From NCBI GenBank assembly GCA_903644065.1, contig CAHJXF010000003.1, positions 1-40,110 on the forward strand: a DNA stretch of 40,110 nt. The letters are read 5' to 3'. Numbering within the stretch: position 1 is the first letter of the stretch; every line of letters begins with the position of its first letter. The notes beneath the pieces were generated by a model, which was not told where the DNA came from, made no database searches, and saw only the letters and a list, made by a program, of their open reading frames with translations. This DNA is from Betaproteobacteria bacterium. GTDB taxonomy: Bacteria; Pseudomonadota; Gammaproteobacteria; Burkholderiales; Burkholderiaceae_D. This document shows, piece after piece, positions 5,448 to 19,814 of the stretch. The translations under genes and the position numbers were made by a program.

Positions 5448-7007
5448 ATGCCCCGTCTGCTGCTCCTGCTCGTCGTCGCGGTGATGGCCCTGCCTGCCTG
5501 CGTGCCGCTGGAACCGCATCGATATCGTCTCGCCAAGGCCGGCGTCGTGTGCAATGCGGCCGACGCGACCTCGCCGGACTGCCGCAACGCGATCGCCGAG
5601 CACGCCGGCGACTACGACCTGCACTTCATCGAGTTCGACGACCAGGGCCTGCAGTACCCCGGCGGCAAGCCGCCGCCCGCATGGGGCCTGAGCGACGCCG
5701 ACATCGCCGACCGCGACTGCGACCTGCGGACCCCGACCTGCCTGCACGGGCAGGCGTGGGCTTTCCAAATCAACAACGCGATCAAGGAACTCGACCAGGC
5801 GGCCGCGCGACAGCCGATCACGCTGCTGGTCTTCGTGCACGGCTGGAAGCACGACGCGAGCGCGGACGACGGCAACGTGAAGGCGTTCCGTGAATTGCTG
5901 TCGGGCATGGCGTTCATCGAGGAGAACCGGGCGAAATTCGAGGCCGCCGCGGGCGCCAAGCCCAGTATCAAGCGCAAGGTCGTCGGCCTGTACGTCAGCT
6001 GGCGGGGCGAGTCGCTCGACGTGCCGGGACTCGACAACATCACGTTCTGGAGCCGCAAGACGGCCGCGATGCACGTGGCCGAAGGGTCGTCGCGCGAACT
6101 GTTCGCCCGCCTGCGCGCGTTCAAGTGCGTGCAGAACGCGCAGGCGCTCGGCGCGGCGCAGCGCGACTGCAGCCTGGCGCCGGCGCGCGACGACGCGGTC
6201 AAGATCATCCTGATCGGCCACAGCTTCGGCGGCCTGATCCTCTACAACTCGCTGTCGGGCTCGCTGATCGAGACGATGACCCATGCCTTCGACGCCAACG
6301 AGAAGGGCGATGCGATGTACTGGCGCTTCGCCGACCTGGCGATCCTGATCAATCCGGCGTTCGAGGCCACGCGCTACGCGCCGCTCCACCGCATCGCGTC
6401 GACGAGCGAGTACCAGCACTACGAGCCGCCGCTGCTGGTCACGGTGACCAGCACGACCGATACGGCGACCGGGGTGTGGTTCAAGGTCGGCCGCTTCTTC
6501 AACACGTTGCTGGAGCGACACGCGAACGACGACGAGCGGACCGCCAACCGCGAAACCGTCGGGCATCACGCCGACTACCTCACGCATCGGCTGGAACTGG
6601 TGCCCGACGACACGGCCGCCTGCAAGGACCAGGGCTGGGTGCTGACCCACGACGTGGCGCCCGACCAGCTGCTCGGCGTGTTCACGCGCGACCTCGCGGT
6701 CGAGTACAACAACAGTCGCGACTTCTTCCGACGCCAGGAGGACCACGCGTCGCCGCACCAACACTTCGCGCTGAGCGACAAGCCGTGGGTGCGCGACTTC
6801 TGCGGCGGCGCCCGCCTGACGACGATCCGCGGCAGCGCCAACAATCCGATCTGGAACATCAGCGCGATCGGCGACAAGGACCTGCTGCCCGACCACAGCG
6901 ACATCAACGAGCCGCGCTTCGTCGCCGTGTTCCGGCAGCTCTACCTGGACACGATCTTCCTCGACCTGATGGTCAAGCCGGGCGGCGTCCGCGCCCGGAC
7001 GGAATGA
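5448..7007 (+). CDS. alpha/beta-hydrolase-fold lipoprotein
   Basis: A 519-residue predicted lipoprotein. The N-terminus is a short hydrophobic signal ending in the lipobox LPAC, with the lipidated Cys at residue 18, so it should be anchored in the envelope. It carries alpha/beta-hydrolase hallmarks: VHGW at residues 130-133 after a beta strand (oxyanion region) and the nucleophile elbow GHSFGG at 257-262 with Ser259. Candidate acid and His residues follow but cannot be assigned with confidence. The protein is large for this fold, with long stretches between core strands and several Cys residues consistent with an oxidising compartment. It stands between the pckG terminator and a convergent secreted protein. 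Lipase, esterase and peptidase activities are all possible; I do not recognise a characterised family. Confidence 0.8.
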   Translation: MPRLLLLLVVAVMALPACVPLEPHRYRLAKAGVVCNAADATSPDCRNAIAEHAGDYDLHFIEFDDQGLQYPGGKPPPAWGLSDADIADRDCDLRTPTCLHGQAWAFQINNAIKELDQAAARQPITLLVFVHGWKHDASADDGNVKAFRELLSGMAFIEENRAKFEAAAGAKPSIKRKVVGLYVSWRGESLDVPGLDNITFWSRKTAAMHVAEGSSRELFARLRAFKCVQNAQALGAAQRDCSLAPARDDAVKIILIGHSFGGLILYNSLSGSLIETMTHAFDANEKGDAMYWRFADLAILINPAFEATRYAPLHRIASTSEYQHYEPPLLVTVTSTTDTATGVWFKVGRFFNTLLERHANDDERTANRETVGHHADYLTHRLELVPDDTAACKDQGWVLTHDVAPDQLLGVFTRDLAVEYNNSRDFFRRQEDHASPHQHFALSDKPWVRDFCGGARLTTIRGSANNPIWNISAIGDKDLLPDHSDINEPRFVAVFRQLYLDTIFLDLMVKPGGVRARTE

Positions 7008-7029: not shown

Positions 7030-7080
7030 GAGCCGTGTCACTGCAAGCCGCGTCACTTGAAGCCGCGTCACTTGAAGCCG
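7030..7080. repeat. 15-bp tandem repeat over the 3' end of the beta-helix gene
   Basis: Two exact copies of AAGCCGCGTCACTTG (7045-7059, 7060-7074) are followed by a partial copy (7075-7080) and preceded by a diverged copy (7030-7044). The period is 15 bases. Read on the minus strand, each unit carries an in-frame TGA, giving three stops at 7068-7070, 7053-7055 and 7038-7040. Confidence 0.88.
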
Positions 7081-8171
7081 TCCGGCTTCAGGTCGACGTT
7101 GCCGGGCAGGTTGCGCTGCACCGCGTTGTGGGTCCGCACGCCCGGCACGTCGGGCAACGAGCCCGGTCCGGCGAAGACGTTGCCGTTGATCGACACGGCG
7201 CTCGTGCCGGGCGCGATGAACAAGAAGCGCGCGCCGCTCGGCCGCTGGCTGATGAACGTGTTGCCCTTGGCGACAAGCTCGTGCGTGCCGTCGGCCGACA
7301 GCCCCTCGGCGCCGTACGACACCAGCGTGCCGTTGTCGCCGGTCGCCGCCTTCTGGAAGATGTTGAACGCCAGCTGCACCTGCCCGCCGTTGGGGAAGTC
7401 CGCTTCGTAGCTCGCATGACCGTCGGTCTCGTCGGCGAGCCGGTTGTCGGTGATCACCGAGATCGCCGCGCGGCTCTTGAGGTTGTGGCCGCCGTTGGCG
7501 TGGTGCAGGTAGCTCTTGCTGACCGACAGGCGGGCCACGTTGCCGACGTAGAGGTTGTGCGTATAACCGTCGCCGCTGCCGTTTCGCGCGAACTCGCAGT
7601 GGTCGATGGTGATCTCGCTGGTCGCGTTGGCGCCGGTCAGCAGGCCGTTCTCGTTGTCGTGCAGGTAGGCGTTGCGCAGCACGAAGTTGCGGCCTTCGAC
7701 ACGGATCGCCGCGCCGTTGCGATCGGGCACTTTCGCGCCGGACATCTCGACGTTGTCGACCGCGATGTCGTCGCCCCGCACTACCCAGGTCCCCTTGCCC
7801 TGCGCGTCGCGACCGTCGGCGCGGATGTGCGGTCGCGGATCGGCGCCCACGATGCGCAAGCGGTTCGCGGTCCACACCGCCACGTCCGCGGGATAGTCGC
7901 CGCTCGCGATCTCGATCGTGTCGCCGTCGCGGGCGGCGGCCGCCGCCGCGCTCGGCGTGGCGTACTCGGCGCTGGGCCCCACGCGGAGCGTGCGCGACGC
8001 CACGTCGATGGGGATCTGCACCGCCGGCAGCACGGGCACGCCGGGCACGCCGATCCCGCTCGTCGACGGCAGCGGTGCCGCGCTCGAGAGCACCCGCTCG
8101 TGGGCCGCGACGGGGCGCCACGTCGGCAGAACGAGCAGGGCGGCGAGGACGGTGGCAGGCAGGGGCTTCAT
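7068..8171 (-). CDS. secreted right-handed beta-helix (pectate-lyase-like) protein
   Basis: A 367-residue exported protein. A signal peptide of about 23 residues ends at VAA before HE. From roughly residue 60 it shows the pattern of parallel beta-helix proteins: an opening like RVGPSAEYATPSAAAAAARDGDTIEI (start of the pectin-lyase-like fold), then repeated short strands with Asn/Asp/Gly turns such as IRVEGRNFVLRNAYLHDNENG and EITIDHCEFARNGSGDG. This fold is shared by pectate lyases, alginate epimerases and non-enzymatic surface proteins. I see no clear catalytic set, so activity on a polysaccharide is an inference. The C-terminal GFK-stop is duplicated in the tandem repeat downstream. It converges with the lipoprotein gene, 60 bases away, and may act in the same compartment. 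Confidence 0.78.
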   Translation of the reverse strand: MKPLPATVLAALLVLPTWRPVAAHERVLSSAAPLPSTSGIGVPGVPVLPAVQIPIDVASRTLRVGPSAEYATPSAAAAAARDGDTIEIASGDYPADVAVWTANRLRIVGADPRPHIRADGRDAQGKGTWVVRGDDIAVDNVEMSGAKVPDRNGAAIRVEGRNFVLRNAYLHDNENGLLTGANATSEITIDHCEFARNGSGDGYTHNLYVGNVARLSVSKSYLHHANGGHNLKSRAAISVITDNRLADETDGHASYEADFPNGGQVQLAFNIFQKAATGDNGTLVSYGAEGLSADGTHELVAKGNTFISQRPSGARFLFIAPGTSAVSINGNVFAGPGSLPDVPGVRTHNAVQRNLPGNVDLKPDGFK

Positions 8172-15419: not shown

Positions 15420-16119
15420 CGCCGCCCGGGCGAATCCGTCGCACGCGATGAGCAGACGCCGGGACGCTGCATTCGATGCGGGGAGTCTGCGCGGTCGCTT
15501 GCGGGTCGGCCTGGACGACCTGCGGCTCGACGCATCGGAAGCCCAGGCGGACCGGCTGATGGCTTACCTCGCATTGCTCTCGAAGTGGAATGCGACCTAC
15601 AACCTGACGTCGGTTCGCGATCCGAACGACATGTTGCCGGTGCATGTGTTGGACTCGTTGTCCGTCCTGCCGTTGATCGATCGTTACGAGGAAGGCTCGG
15701 TGCTGGACGTCGGGTCGGGCGCAGGACTGCCCGCCATTCCGCTCGCGATCCTTCGACCGGCGCTCCGCGTCGAGACGGTCGATGCGGTGGCCAAGAAGAT
15801 CGGCTTCCAACGGCAGGTCCGAAGCGAACTAGCCGTCGGCAATCTATTCCCTCACCACGTCAGGATCGAAGAATTTCGCCCGGCTTCGTTGCCGTCCATC
15901 GTCATCAGCCGAGCCTATGGCGACATCGCGGGCCTGCTCGCCTCGATCGATCATCTGGTCACCCGAAGCAGCACCGTCATCGCGATGAAGGGGGTCGAAC
16001 CCACGATCGAGATCGCTGCGGTGCCCCCTCGCTGGAACGTGGCATCGCCCATTGCGCTGCAAGTGCCATTGCTCGGCGCCCGGCGCTGCGCCGTCGTCAT
16101 CACCCGGGCGGCCGGATGA
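15409..16119 (+). CDS. rsmG: 16S rRNA (guanine-527-N7) methyltransferase RsmG (GidB)
   Basis: A 236-residue SAM-dependent methyltransferase acting on G527 of 16S rRNA. Family blocks are [24 protein letters not shown], the SAM-binding motif [17 protein letters not shown] (from residue 98) and [11 protein letters not shown]. The start is uncertain: the ATG at 15409 overlaps mnmG by 11 bases and suits coupled translation, while an in-frame ATG at 15448 would give 223 residues, close to the usual length. Neither has a clear Shine-Dalgarno site. Its stop overlaps the parA start (ATGA at 16116-16119). Confidence 0.94.
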
Positions 16120-16949
16120 CGGCCGACGCGAAGATCTTCGCGGTCGCCAATCAGAAAGGCGGCGTCGGCAAGACGACGACCACCGTCAATCTCGCTGCGG
16201 CCCTGGCCGCTGGCGGCCAGCGGGTTCTCCTGGTCGACCTCGACCCCCAGGGCAACGCCACCATGGGCTCCGGCATCGACAAGCGATCACTGCGGCACAG
16301 CGTGTACCAGGTGCTGCTCGGCCTGAGTCCGATCGCTTCGGTGCTGCAACGCTCGCCGAGCGGCGGCTACGACGTCCTGCCGGCGAATCGGGAGCTGGCC
16401 GGCGCGGAACTGGACCTGGTCGACCTCGAACGCCGGGAGACCCGTCTCAAGGCCGCACTGGCCGCACAACTCGAGCACTACGATTTCGTGCTGATCGATT
16501 GTCCGCCTGCGTTGTCGCTGCTCACGCTGAACGGCCTGACGACCGCGCACGGCGTCATCATCCCCATGCAGTGCGAGTACTACGCACTCGAAGGACTGTC
16601 GGACCTCGTCAACACCATCAAGCAGGTGCATCGCAATCTCAATCCGTCGCTGGAAATCATCGGGCTGCTGCGCGTCATGTTCGATCCTCGCTCGACGCTG
16701 GCTCGCCAGGTCTCTGACCAGCTCGAGGCGCATTTCGGCGACAAGGTTTTTCGCACGGTCGTGCCGCGCAACGTGCGGTTGGCCGAGGCGCCGTCTTTCG
16801 GCATGCCCGGCCTGGTGTTCGACCGGTCCAGCAAGGGTGCTCAGGCCTACCTGGCGTTCGGCGCTGAAATGATCGATCGTTTTCGACGCGACGCGGAGAC
16901 GACCAGCGGCCAGGCGTCGTTCGACGCGCGCGCGGAGTCGGTGTCGTGA
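16116..16949 (+). CDS. parA: chromosome-partitioning ATPase ParA (Soj)
   Basis: A 277-residue deviant-Walker ATPase that moves ParB-parS complexes over the nucleoid. Residues 14-21 form the motif KGGVGKTT with the signature Lys15. VLLVDLDPQGNATMG and FVLIDCPPALSLLTLNGL are the further ParA blocks. It lacks the N-terminal DNA-binding domain of long plasmid-type ParA proteins, in line with a chromosomal system. The ATG overlaps the rsmG stop and its own stop overlaps the GTG of parB, so expression of the three should be coupled. Two parS sites lie 1-3 kb upstream. Confidence 0.97.
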   Translation: MTADAKIFAVANQKGGVGKTTTTVNLAAALAAGGQRVLLVDLDPQGNATMGSGIDKRSLRHSVYQVLLGLSPIASVLQRSPSGGYDVLPANRELAGAELDLVDLERRETRLKAALAAQLEHYDFVLIDCPPALSLLTLNGLTTAHGVIIPMQCEYYALEGLSDLVNTIKQVHRNLNPSLEIIGLLRVMFDPRSTLARQVSDQLEAHFGDKVFRTVVPRNVRLAEAPSFGMPGLVFDRSSKGAQAYLAFGAEMIDRFRRDAETTSGQASFDARAESVS

Positions 16950-17836
16950 ACAAGCGAAAAGGCCTGGGTCGCGGCCTCGAAGCGCTGCTGGGCGCGACCG
17001 AGCCGCCTCCCAAGGACGATGGCGACTCAAGCGCCGGTCGACCGAGCTCGTTGCCGCTCGACGTTCTGCAAGCCGGCAAGTACCAGCCGCGAACGCGCAT
17101 GGACGAGGGCGCGCTCGTCGAATTGGCCGAGTCGATCCGCGTGCAGGGCGTCATGCAGCCGGTGCTGGTCCGCGGCATCGAGGGTGGCCGCTACGAGATC
17201 ATCGCCGGCGAGCGGCGCGTCCGCGCCGCGGCGCTGGCCGGCCTGACGGACATCCCGGTGCTGGTTCGCGACGTGCCCGACGAGTCGGCGGCCGCCATGG
17301 CGCTGATCGAGAACATCCAGCGCGAAGATCTCAACCCGCTCGAGGAAGCGCAGGGCGTACAGCGCCTGGTCTCGGAATTCAAGCTGACGCACGAGGAAGC
17401 GGCTCGCGCGATCGGGCGTTCCCGCAGCGCGACATCGAACCTGCTGCGGCTGGTCAACCTGGCCAAGCCAGTTCAGGCGCTGCTGATGGCGGGCGATCTC
17501 GACATGGGCCATGCCCGTGCCCTGCTGGTCGTCGATCCGGCGCAGCAGATCACGCTCGCCAACCAGATCGTCGGCAAGCGCATGTCGGTTCGGGACGCGG
17601 AGCGCCTGGTGGCAAAAGTGGGCGCTGACTTCGAGCTTTCTCGAACGTCCGGACGAGCGCGCAACAAGCCACGCAATCCCGATATCGCGCGCCTGGAGAC
17701 CGAGTTGTCGGACGGACTTGCCACCCGGGTCGAGATCCGCATGCGCGACAAGGCGAGCGGCCAGGTGGTGATCGACTTCGGCGACCTCGACCAGCTCGAC
17801 GGCCTGCTCGCGCAACTCCGGCGACTGCCCGCCTGA
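16946..17836 (+). CDS. parB: chromosome-partitioning protein ParB (Spo0J), CTP-dependent clamp
   Basis: A 296-residue parS-binding protein. The N-terminal KGLGRGLEALLG contacts ParA in homologues. The nucleotide-binding region has GERRVRA (residues 88-94) and ENIQR (122-126), the motifs linked to CTP binding. A helix-turn-helix (about 148-168, LTHEEAARAIGRSRSATSNLL) recognises parS, and a C-terminal dimerisation segment ends the protein. Translation starts at GTG 16946, overlapping the parA stop in GTGA. The stop is only 12 bases from the end of the convergent MshEN-repeat gene, with no room for a terminator between them. Confidence 0.97.
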   Translation: MNKRKGLGRGLEALLGATEPPPKDDGDSSAGRPSSLPLDVLQAGKYQPRTRMDEGALVELAESIRVQGVMQPVLVRGIEGGRYEIIAGERRVRAAALAGLTDIPVLVRDVPDESAAAMALIENIQREDLNPLEEAQGVQRLVSEFKLTHEEAARAIGRSRSATSNLLRLVNLAKPVQALLMAGDLDMGHARALLVVDPAQQITLANQIVGKRMSVRDAERLVAKVGADFELSRTSGRARNKPRNPDIARLETELSDGLATRVEIRMRDKASGQVVIDFGDLDQLDGLLAQLRRLPA

Positions 17837-17848
17837 CCGCGCGGACGT

Positions 17849-19204
17849 TCATTCGTCGCGCTGGAATCGAATCCGCGTGATGCGTTCGCCGTGCCGCGAC
17901 TCGACGTGGATTTCGAGCGAGCCGCCGCGCTCGACCGCGACGAGCGCCATCTCGATGGCCTGCAACAGGTGGGGATCGGTGAGCCCTTCCAGCGATTCCT
18001 GGAACCGGCTGTCGTCGACCGTCAAGGCCTCGTCGAGCGCCTGCGCGTCGATCTCGGCCATGCCTTCGAAGTGGATCGCGGACGCGTCGGCGAAGAAATG
18101 CTCGTCGGGTTGCTCGCCGTAGGCTTCCAGGCGTCGCGCCTTGATTTCCTGGCCGGGCGCGAGGACCTGCACGACCCGCATGCGCGACAGCAGCGTCAGC
18201 TCGTTCAGGCCCGACGCATCGAGCTGACTCTCGGCGGCCACGATCAGGTCGCCGTGCTCGATCGACAGCGGCACGATGCCGAGTCGCAGTGCGACGTCGG
18301 GCGCGATCGCGCGCACGGCCTCGGGCGAGACCGTGAAGTTGGCCAGCGACACGAAGTGGTGGCCCATCTTCTTCGCGTGGATCTTGTTCAGCGTGTCGGC
18401 GTCGACGACGCCCATGTCGATCAGGATCTGGCCGAGCGGCCGCCCGCGGTTGGCCCGCTGACGCGACAAGGCGATCTGCAGCGCGTCCGGCGCGATCGCG
18501 CCGAGTTCGATGAGCGCTTCGCCGAGACGCAGGCTCGGTTTCGTCTGCTGATGGGCCAGGGCCGCTTCGAGCTGCTGCGCCGTGATCAGGCCTTCGTCGA
18601 TCAGATAGTCGCCGAGCACCAGCTTGCGCATCTCCTGCTGCTTCTCGACGGCCGCCTGCAGCTGTTCTTCGCTGACCGCGTTCTCCTCCACGAGGACGCG
18701 GCCGATCGGGTCGCCGGCCTGGAAATAGGCGATCGCCGACTCCGGGACGAAGACGCGCTCGAGCAGATCGCCGGGGCGGCCGAAATAGAGGAACAGGCCG
18801 ATCGCATTGCGCACGTAGCCGCTGGTGTCGCCGGACTCGATCTCGTGATCGTCGAACTCGACGTTGTAGACATGCACCTGCGACGCCGCGAGCGAGACGT
18901 CGCCGCCGGACAGCGACATCTCGAGCGGACGCGCCGTCACCGGCTCGGTCAGTCGCAGCCGCTTGAAACGCGAGTTGCGCACGATGATCTTCGACGGATA
19001 GCGCGGATGGTCCGCATGCGGCCGGAAGACCACGTGCTCGTCGCGCCCGGTGAAGCGCAGCAACTCGCCTCTTTCCACCGAGCCGTCGTTGAACTCGATC
19101 TCGCACGGCTCACCGCCGCCTTCCTTCGTACCCAGCCGCAGATGGGCGGGCTCCGGCCAATGGATGGTGAGCGCTTCGGCGTCGCCGGGACGAGCAGGAA
19201 TCAT
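17849..19204 (-). CDS. ATPase-less GspE/PilB-like protein with four MshEN-type repeats
   Basis: A 451-residue cytoplasmic-type protein without signal peptide or membrane segment. Residues 33-90 form a beta-rich, possibly PilZ-like region. Four MshEN-like motifs follow with Gly at exactly 30-residue spacing (G168, G198, G228, G258), each of the form LGxxLIxxGxxxxxxLxxAL. Residues 281-360 resemble the rest of the type II secretion/type IV pilus ATPase N-domain (FVSLANFTVSPEAVRAI, RLGIVPLSIEHGDLIVAAES). Residues 412-451 (LLQAIEMALVAVERGGSLEIHVES) resemble the start of the GspE catalytic region, but the protein ends there, with no Walker A, Walker B or zinc motif. MshEN domains bind c-di-GMP in MshE and relatives; copy 3 (LRLGEALIELG) is the best match. 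The role is unknown; a c-di-GMP-responsive adaptor is the best inference. Confidence 0.75.
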   Translation of the reverse strand: MIPARPGDAEALTIHWPEPAHLRLGTKEGGGEPCEIEFNDGSVERGELLRFTGRDEHVVFRPHADHPRYPSKIIVRNSRFKRLRLTEPVTARPLEMSLSGGDVSLAASQVHVYNVEFDDHEIESGDTSGYVRNAIGLFLYFGRPGDLLERVFVPESAIAYFQAGDPIGRVLVEENAVSEEQLQAAVEKQQEMRKLVLGDYLIDEGLITAQQLEAALAHQQTKPSLRLGEALIELGAIAPDALQIALSRQRANRGRPLGQILIDMGVVDADTLNKIHAKKMGHHFVSLANFTVSPEAVRAIAPDVALRLGIVPLSIEHGDLIVAAESQLDASGLNELTLLSRMRVVQVLAPGQEIKARRLEAYGEQPDEHFFADASAIHFEGMAEIDAQALDEALTVDDSRFQESLEGLTDPHLLQAIEMALVAVERGGSLEIHVESRHGERITRIRFQRDE

Positions 19205-19463
19205 GGAAGTCGATCGATGACGGCGTGGGCACCGCGGGAAGCGAGCGAGCGTAGCGTGGAACCTTCGCTACAACCATCGGTTCATTTCCGAGGGGACTTG
19301 AGTGGTTTCCATCAGCCCCGCTGGTCGGTCGAGCCAGCAAGACGGCGACGGCGTCGGTTTGACGGGCGCGTGATTAAAAAAGTATCATCTCGCGGCTTTG
19401 CGTTCGACGAATCGAAGCGTCCGACCAACGGCTGCCCGGCGCAGCGTCCAGCGGTACCGCGCG
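19205..19463. other. intergenic region between the MshEN-repeat gene and atpI
   Basis: This 259-base divergent gap holds the atp promoter at its right end. A short dyad, GTAGCG (19251-19256) and CGCTAC (19266-19271), lies about 47 bases upstream of the MshEN-repeat gene start and might be an operator for it. An in-frame TTG at 19398 could extend atpI, but it falls almost on the predicted transcription start. Confidence 0.4.
19359..19388 (+). promoter_or_regulatory. sigma-70 promoter of the atp operon
   Basis: TTGACG (19359-19364) and TATCAT (19383-19388) are separated by 18 bases; each matches its consensus hexamer at 5 of 6 positions. An A-rich stretch fills part of the spacer, unusual in this G+C-rich DNA. 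Transcription should start near 19395, giving a leader of about 70 bases before the atpI ATG. Confidence 0.7.
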
Positions 19464-19814
19464 ATGGCATCAGCCGTTCTCCTGCAGGTCGCGATGACCG
19501 TCGTCGTCGCCGCGTTGGCAGCGATGATCGGCGGCTGGCACGCCGGCCTGTCGGCACTGATCGGGGGGGCGGCCTGCCTCGTGCCCAATGCCTTGTTCGC
19601 GCTGCGACTGGCCGTCGAATCGCGGCGGCCGGGCGGGGCGACGGTCCACGGATTCTTCATCGGCGAGTTCGTGAAGATCGCGGCGACGATCGGCGCACTG
19701 GTGCTGGTGGCGACGATCGATCGCAACGTGAACTGGCCTGCGCTCATCGTCGGGTTCATCGCGGCCCTGAAGAGTTATTACCTGCGGTTCGCGTTCCGGC
19801 GCGGCATGGCCTGA
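19464..19814 (+). CDS. atpI: ATP synthase subunit I (AtpI)
   Basis: A 116-residue small membrane protein, first gene of the ATP synthase operon. It has about four hydrophobic segments, with the typical AtpI stretch GLSALIGGAACLVPNALFALRL and then GFFIGEFVKIAATIGALVLV. AtpI is a non-essential assembly factor that helps form the c-ring. The ATG at 19464 (MASAVLLQVAM) is preferred; a TTG at 19398 would add 22 residues but would lie at the predicted transcription start. The gene is followed closely by atpB. Confidence 0.87.
   Translation: MASAVLLQVAMTVVVAALAAMIGGWHAGLSALIGGAACLVPNALFALRLAVESRRPGGATVHGFFIGEFVKIAATIGALVLVATIDRNVNWPALIVGFIAALKSYYLRFAFRRGMA

Follow-up and report, generated by a model that had tools for sequence, protein, structure and literature searches.

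The DNA examined here is a stretch of 40,110 nucleotides from an organism catalogued as Betaproteobacteria bacterium (Burkholderiaceae_D; GenBank assembly GCA_903644065.1, contig CAHJXF010000003.1), and is referred to as the window. Between parB and atpI, it encodes a protein of 451 amino acids (aa) that is a real and conserved derivative of an MshEN assembly ATPase from which the motor is missing. The protein is best taken as a probable sensor or adaptor, not as a motor or the product of a broken gene. With a probability of about 0.55, it is a cytoplasmic effector of cyclic diguanylate (c-di-GMP) descended from a GspE/PilB-like assembly ATPase through one motor loss; its ligand binding, partner and biological output are putative. 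The evidence is drawn from its architecture, a motor loss confined to a single clade, selection, synteny and the MshEN fold.

As listed in Table 1, a beta-rich N-terminal domain is followed by four 24-residue MshEN motifs, an MshEN_C subdomain and the start of an N2 domain. The motifs begin at residues 166, 196, 226 and 256 with a period of exactly 30, and Gly168, Gly198, Gly228 and Gly258 are the third residue of each. An earlier note, made from the sequence alone, had described four repeats at this spacing, and both the motif starts and the profile matches bear it out. The NCBIfam c-di-GMP motif model NF053729 matches the protein in three stretches (E = 4.8e-35, 119.1 bits, cut-off 38) and Pfam MshEN (PF05157) matches residues 284–365 (E = 2.6e-10, 40.6 bits, cut-off 23.1); judged by these profile scores, the motif array is not due to chance. 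Residues 224–450 align with residues 23–238 of Geobacter PilB, reaching into the N2 domain (N2D), and the C-terminus lies inside N2D at the equivalent of PilB residue 238. Walker A is absent from all nine short forms described below, and TIGR02538 scores 62 bits against the window protein, below its cut-off of 675.65. The earlier note had a T2SS/T4P N-domain followed by an end exactly where the ATPase core would begin; the missing motor is confirmed, but the stop falls inside N2D rather than at its border, and in all long relatives that were measured Walker A follows the last shared residue by 105–107 residues.

Genome searches identified short forms in nine genomes from six genera, the window's included, with frames of 458–479 aa and with the others 46–78% identical to the window protein. 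About thirty other genomes from the same taxonomic family have frames of 747–974 aa and are 30–35% identical over residues 14–450, two weaker partial matches being set apart from this count. The frame lengths thus fall into two sharply separate classes. All long forms examined contain GPTGSGKT, and relatives of approximately 800 aa with an intact ATPase, homologous over the full length of the short form, are found at other loci across the Gammaproteobacteria. Beyond the window's family, no short form was found in 399 order-level and 369 class-level genomes, where long forms do occur, although one candidate of 508 aa there runs off a contig end. At a threshold of E = 1e-20 the two forms never occurred together in one genome, and no long form was found at the par-atp locus. 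In one genome, a long MshEN ATPase directly adjoins a PilU-like gene on the same strand (L036:5027-8605).

In a tree with 42 long forms, from which no root was inferred, the short forms make up one clade with a support of 100/100. As the short protein breaks off partway through an N2 domain, the simpler interpretation is that the ancestor had a motor, and this motor appears to have been lost in a single event. The long, ATPase-bearing relatives carry the same four motifs. Therefore, the array predates motor loss, and four motifs are not the mark of a motor-less sensor that the earlier note had taken them to be.

Selection on the gene was estimated by the Nei-Gojobori method. The ratio of nonsynonymous to synonymous substitution rates (dN/dS) was 0.18–0.23 among three genomes of the window's genus and 0.08 in another. 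Within the protein, constraint is strongest in the motif region, where the proportions of nonsynonymous (pN) and synonymous (pS) differences are 0.02–0.04 and 0.44–0.49, respectively, and the motif residues are invariant in the short forms across the six genera. Because dN/dS is low and pN in the motif region is far under pS, these substitution patterns indicate that the gene is maintained mainly for its MshEN part.

The four motifs were scored at 11 positions against the extended consensus (R/K/L)LGxx... (PMC11731258). Motifs 2 and 3 each match at 10 positions, the exceptions being V196 and A236, while motif 4 matches at eight, without the last Leu and Gln, and motif 1 at six. Motifs 2 and 3 are thus the two consecutive motifs with ligand residues. 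From this pattern, c-di-GMP binding by the window protein is likely, with a single site from motifs 2 and 3 the likely binder and at most one or two sites expected (2+3, perhaps 1+2). In an AlphaFold model of residues 160–364 (predicted local distance difference test, pLDDT = 78), an alpha/beta domain accompanies four helical hairpins, and the model's top Foldseek matches in the PDB are the c-di-GMP-bound structures of PilF-GSPIIB and MshE (8pdk and 5htl, E = 7e-8 to 1e-6). The comparison with MshE that the earlier note had proposed therefore supports an MshEN fold. Global template modelling scores were low (0.35–0.5), which, from the model, is put down to the longer motif array. A full-length model had a mean pLDDT of 47.6 and was kept out of these claims. 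No RNA, c-di-GMP riboswitches included, was identified close to the gene, as an Rfam search of the window gave no match.

The N-terminal domain is common to the short forms and the long relatives. Pfam DUF6982 (PF22478) matches 11 of 26 family members (best E = 9e-8); the window copy itself has no match. An LSm/EDC3 identity was not adopted, the match being weak and merely suggestive (E = 0.058), nor was DUF4388 (PF14332), for which the match (E = 3e-8) spans just positions 35–76 out of 122, falls on the first motif and was taken as a repeat cross-match. To what the earlier note had described, the present study adds this domain of approximately 150 residues, a diguanylate cyclase neighbour in some relatives and a companion ATPase elsewhere in the genome.

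The companion is one of four assembly ATPases in the window genome, which encodes PilB at a pilBCD-like locus, TfpB, GspE beside GspD and, on contig C35, a GAF-MshEN-T2SSE protein located beside two pilin-type genes, one of them confirmed by Pfam. The C35 motor is 54–60% identical to the motors of the long forms, compared to about 40% for those of PilB, TfpB and GspE. It also groups with the long-form motors, apart from PilB and GspE (Shimodaira-Hasegawa-like approximate likelihood ratio test, SH-aLRT, 99), in the first of two motor trees, the second having two mis-cut rows and not being used. Every one of the nine short-form genomes has a C35 orthologue with pilin genes nearby (motor 77–93% identical in the other eight); a C35-type ATPase also occurs in one of four long-form genomes tested and in neither of two genomes that lack both forms. 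The c-di-GMP motif model has no match in C35, PilB or TfpB of the window genome and matches the short protein strongly; this suggests that the short protein may supply c-di-GMP sensing in trans. A 296-aa protein encoded on contig C2 (L037:5059-5949), among exopolysaccharide-like genes, has one MshEN-like motif pair that matches the motifs of the short protein (E = 8.7e-4), and resembles EpsG-type kinases.

The favoured reading may be set out as follows. An ancestor with an N-terminal beta domain, tandem MshEN and a motor would have lost the motor once. In the resulting protein, c-di-GMP would most likely bind to the helical hairpins that motifs 2 and 3 form and thereby reorient MshEN_N against MshEN_C, whereupon MshEN_C and the N-terminal domain would contact a partner, either an assembly ATPase or an inner-membrane stator. 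The best candidate is the C35 ATPase since it has a sister motor, lacks a c-di-GMP motif match and occurs in every short-form genome beside pilin genes.

The gene occupies the positions that the earlier note had given; it is encoded on the minus strand, from a start at 19204 to a stop at 17849, and lies tail-to-tail with parB, the stop of which at 17836 is 12 bases away. In five genera (g1, g10, g20, g34 and g59) the short gene is convergent to parB and upstream of atpI/atpB. In the sixth (g60) it is still beside atpI, with parB approximately 50 kb away. A reading of the sequence found genes resembling a type I restriction-modification system downstream of this copy, where parB would be expected (L127:11134-17008). 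The location that the earlier note had asked to be surveyed among relatives is therefore kept in full in five genera and beside atpI in the other, while in the majority of the other genera examined atpI comes straight after parB, with no short gene between them. On twenty of the other genes of the window, Pfam identified no pilus or secretion families, consistent with the earlier note, and only housekeeping and transport functions. Two open reading frames, 5448-7004 (519 aa) and 7071-8171 (367 aa), had no Pfam match at 1e-8. In two genomes of g10 and one of g59, a REC-GGDEF gene begins 9–36 bp past the stop of the short gene, on the same strand and before parB, and the g10 protein has an intact GGEEF. 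The window genome has no close copy of this neighbour. GGDEF proteins are present in all 13 genomes tested, with 17 in the window's own.

Table 1. Positions of the short gene, its encoded domains and the genes discussed with it. Positions without a locus prefix refer to the window.
Feature	Position	Strand	Basis or remark
Motor-less MshEN protein, 451 aa	17849..19204	-	Open reading frame and profile matches; orthologues in 8 other genomes
N-terminal domain, residues 13–165, two beta-rich halves	18710..19168	-	DUF6982-like / possibly Sm-like barrels; Pfam in relatives, weak LSm match
MshEN motif 1, residues 166–189	18638..18709	-	Degenerate (6/11)
MshEN motif 2, residues 196–219	18548..18619	-	VLGDYLIDEGLITAQQLEAALAHQ (10/11)
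MshEN motif 3, residues 226–249	18458..18529	-	RLGEALIELGAIAPDALQIALSRQ (10/11)
MshEN motif 4, residues 256–279	18368..18439	-	Without ligand positions L21 and Q24 (8/11)
MshEN_C subdomain, residues 284–365	18110..18355	-	Pfam PF05157
N2 domain start, residues 410–450	17855..17977	-	Cut off before ATPase core
parA	16116..16949	+	
parB	16946..17836	+	Convergent neighbour, 12 bp away
Sigma-70-like promoter before atpI	19359..19388	+	Consensus match only
atpI	19464..19814	+	Divergent neighbour, first gene of atp operon
REC-GGDEF diguanylate cyclase genes	L028:7775-8737, L045:2856-3785, L044:2899-3822	Same as short gene	
GAF-MshEN-T2SSE ATPase, 813 aa	L040:15452-17893		Contig C35 of window genome; two pilin-type genes adjacent

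Several observations weigh against a c-di-GMP effector that acts on a pilus-type partner. Motif 2 opens with V where the consensus has R/K/L, and the spacer between motifs is six residues instead of five. Four genera, the window's among them, lack the REC-GGDEF neighbour, and the short gene has no physical link to pilus genes. The co-occurrence with C35 is drawn from a single clade of genomes and six others, such that shared descent alone could explain it. Lastly, the C-terminal tail is weakly constrained (pN 0.29, pS 0.37–0.49 in two pairs). Together with the truncation within N2D, such a tail would be expected of a decaying remnant of a long ATPase; however, nine genomes share the same length and end point, the short forms are a single clade, dN/dS is 0.08–0.23 and the motif residues do not vary, which makes decay very improbable. 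The truncated pseudogene of a longer PilB that the earlier note had considered is excluded by the same single clade, conserved length and purifying selection.

The other alternatives accept a functional protein. It is doubtful, but conceivable, that the protein is a motor-less decoy which holds a PilM/GspL-type stator or an ATPase docking site via N1/MshEN_C to inhibit assembly, its c-di-GMP binding being lost or secondary. The MshEN_C part of the model weakly matches EpsE/GspE N-domains solved in complex with EpsL/GspL (2bh1, E = 0.24; 4pht, E = 0.2), and a contact between N1D and the stator has been inferred in the literature (PMC11656802); against this, the region under most constraint is that of the ligand motifs, which argues for a site in use. 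A sensor acting through the N-terminal beta domain on a target outside pili and secretion, such as chromosome partition or ATP synthase, would suit a position conserved in five genera with no pilus genes adjoining. This is improbable as the parB-atpI adjacency is the ancestral order in other genera, one genus keeps the gene with atpI although parB has moved, and the gene is in no operon with either neighbour since it is convergent to one and divergent from the other. Equally improbable is a split ATPase, a single mixed hexamer of the short protein with a distinct motor protein that would stand in for the long ATPase. While the grouping of the C35-type motor, its distribution among the tested genomes and the complementary features of the two proteins (c-di-GMP motifs in one, a motor in the other) are in its favour, C35 is complete as a motor with its own N1 (GAF and MshEN_C) and N2 domains, and the phylogeny cannot place the short-form sister among the long forms. 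More loosely, a motor-less c-di-GMP receptor and a GAF-bearing C35-type ATPase may divide sensor and motor between them and act in trans, perhaps within one mixed complex; this is a tentative and rather unlikely proposal.

The known carriers of MshEN domains are mainly ATPases and glycosyltransferases. In a derivative that is conserved and under selection without a motor, ligand sensing is naturally separated from ATP hydrolysis. No literature was found on ATPase-less MshEN proteins or on DUF6982. For PilB, the route by which binding of c-di-GMP at N1 is relayed is described as open (PMC11656802), and the motor-less derivative offers a way to study this step. Should the protein act on the companion ATPase, the motor's own N-terminal part would have given rise to a c-di-GMP regulator that works in trans.

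Among known systems, one of the top fold matches is the MshEN domain of Vibrio cholerae MshE (PDB: 5HTL; PMC5013675), which likewise has two-motif helical hairpins followed by MshEN_C; tandem MshEN_N units were already noted in that paper. The window protein differs in having four motifs at a 30-residue period, compared to two with a five-residue spacer, no ATPase after MshEN and an extra N-terminal domain. Its best PDB sequence match is to the GSPII domains of Thermus thermophilus PilF (E = 1e-24; PMC11731258), of which GSPII-C has three motifs and a non-Arg first residue is tolerated; PilF differs in retaining a motor and in having its GSPII domains as three separate units. The C35 ATPase shares the motor subfamily of the long relatives but, unlike the window protein, has a GAF domain and a motor and no c-di-GMP motif match. 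In another Burkholderiales family (f37), stand-alone MshEN proteins of 182–198 aa (L087, L088 and L093) also lack an ATPase; they differ in lineage and have no N-terminal domain, only the region of motifs 3–4 and MshEN_C. The unnamed DUF6982-like, MshEN and T2SSE ATPases of approximately 800 aa found here in the Gammaproteobacteria are homologous over residues 14–450 and share the four motifs, yet they retain the motor intact, are encoded at other loci and have only 25–35% identity to the window protein.
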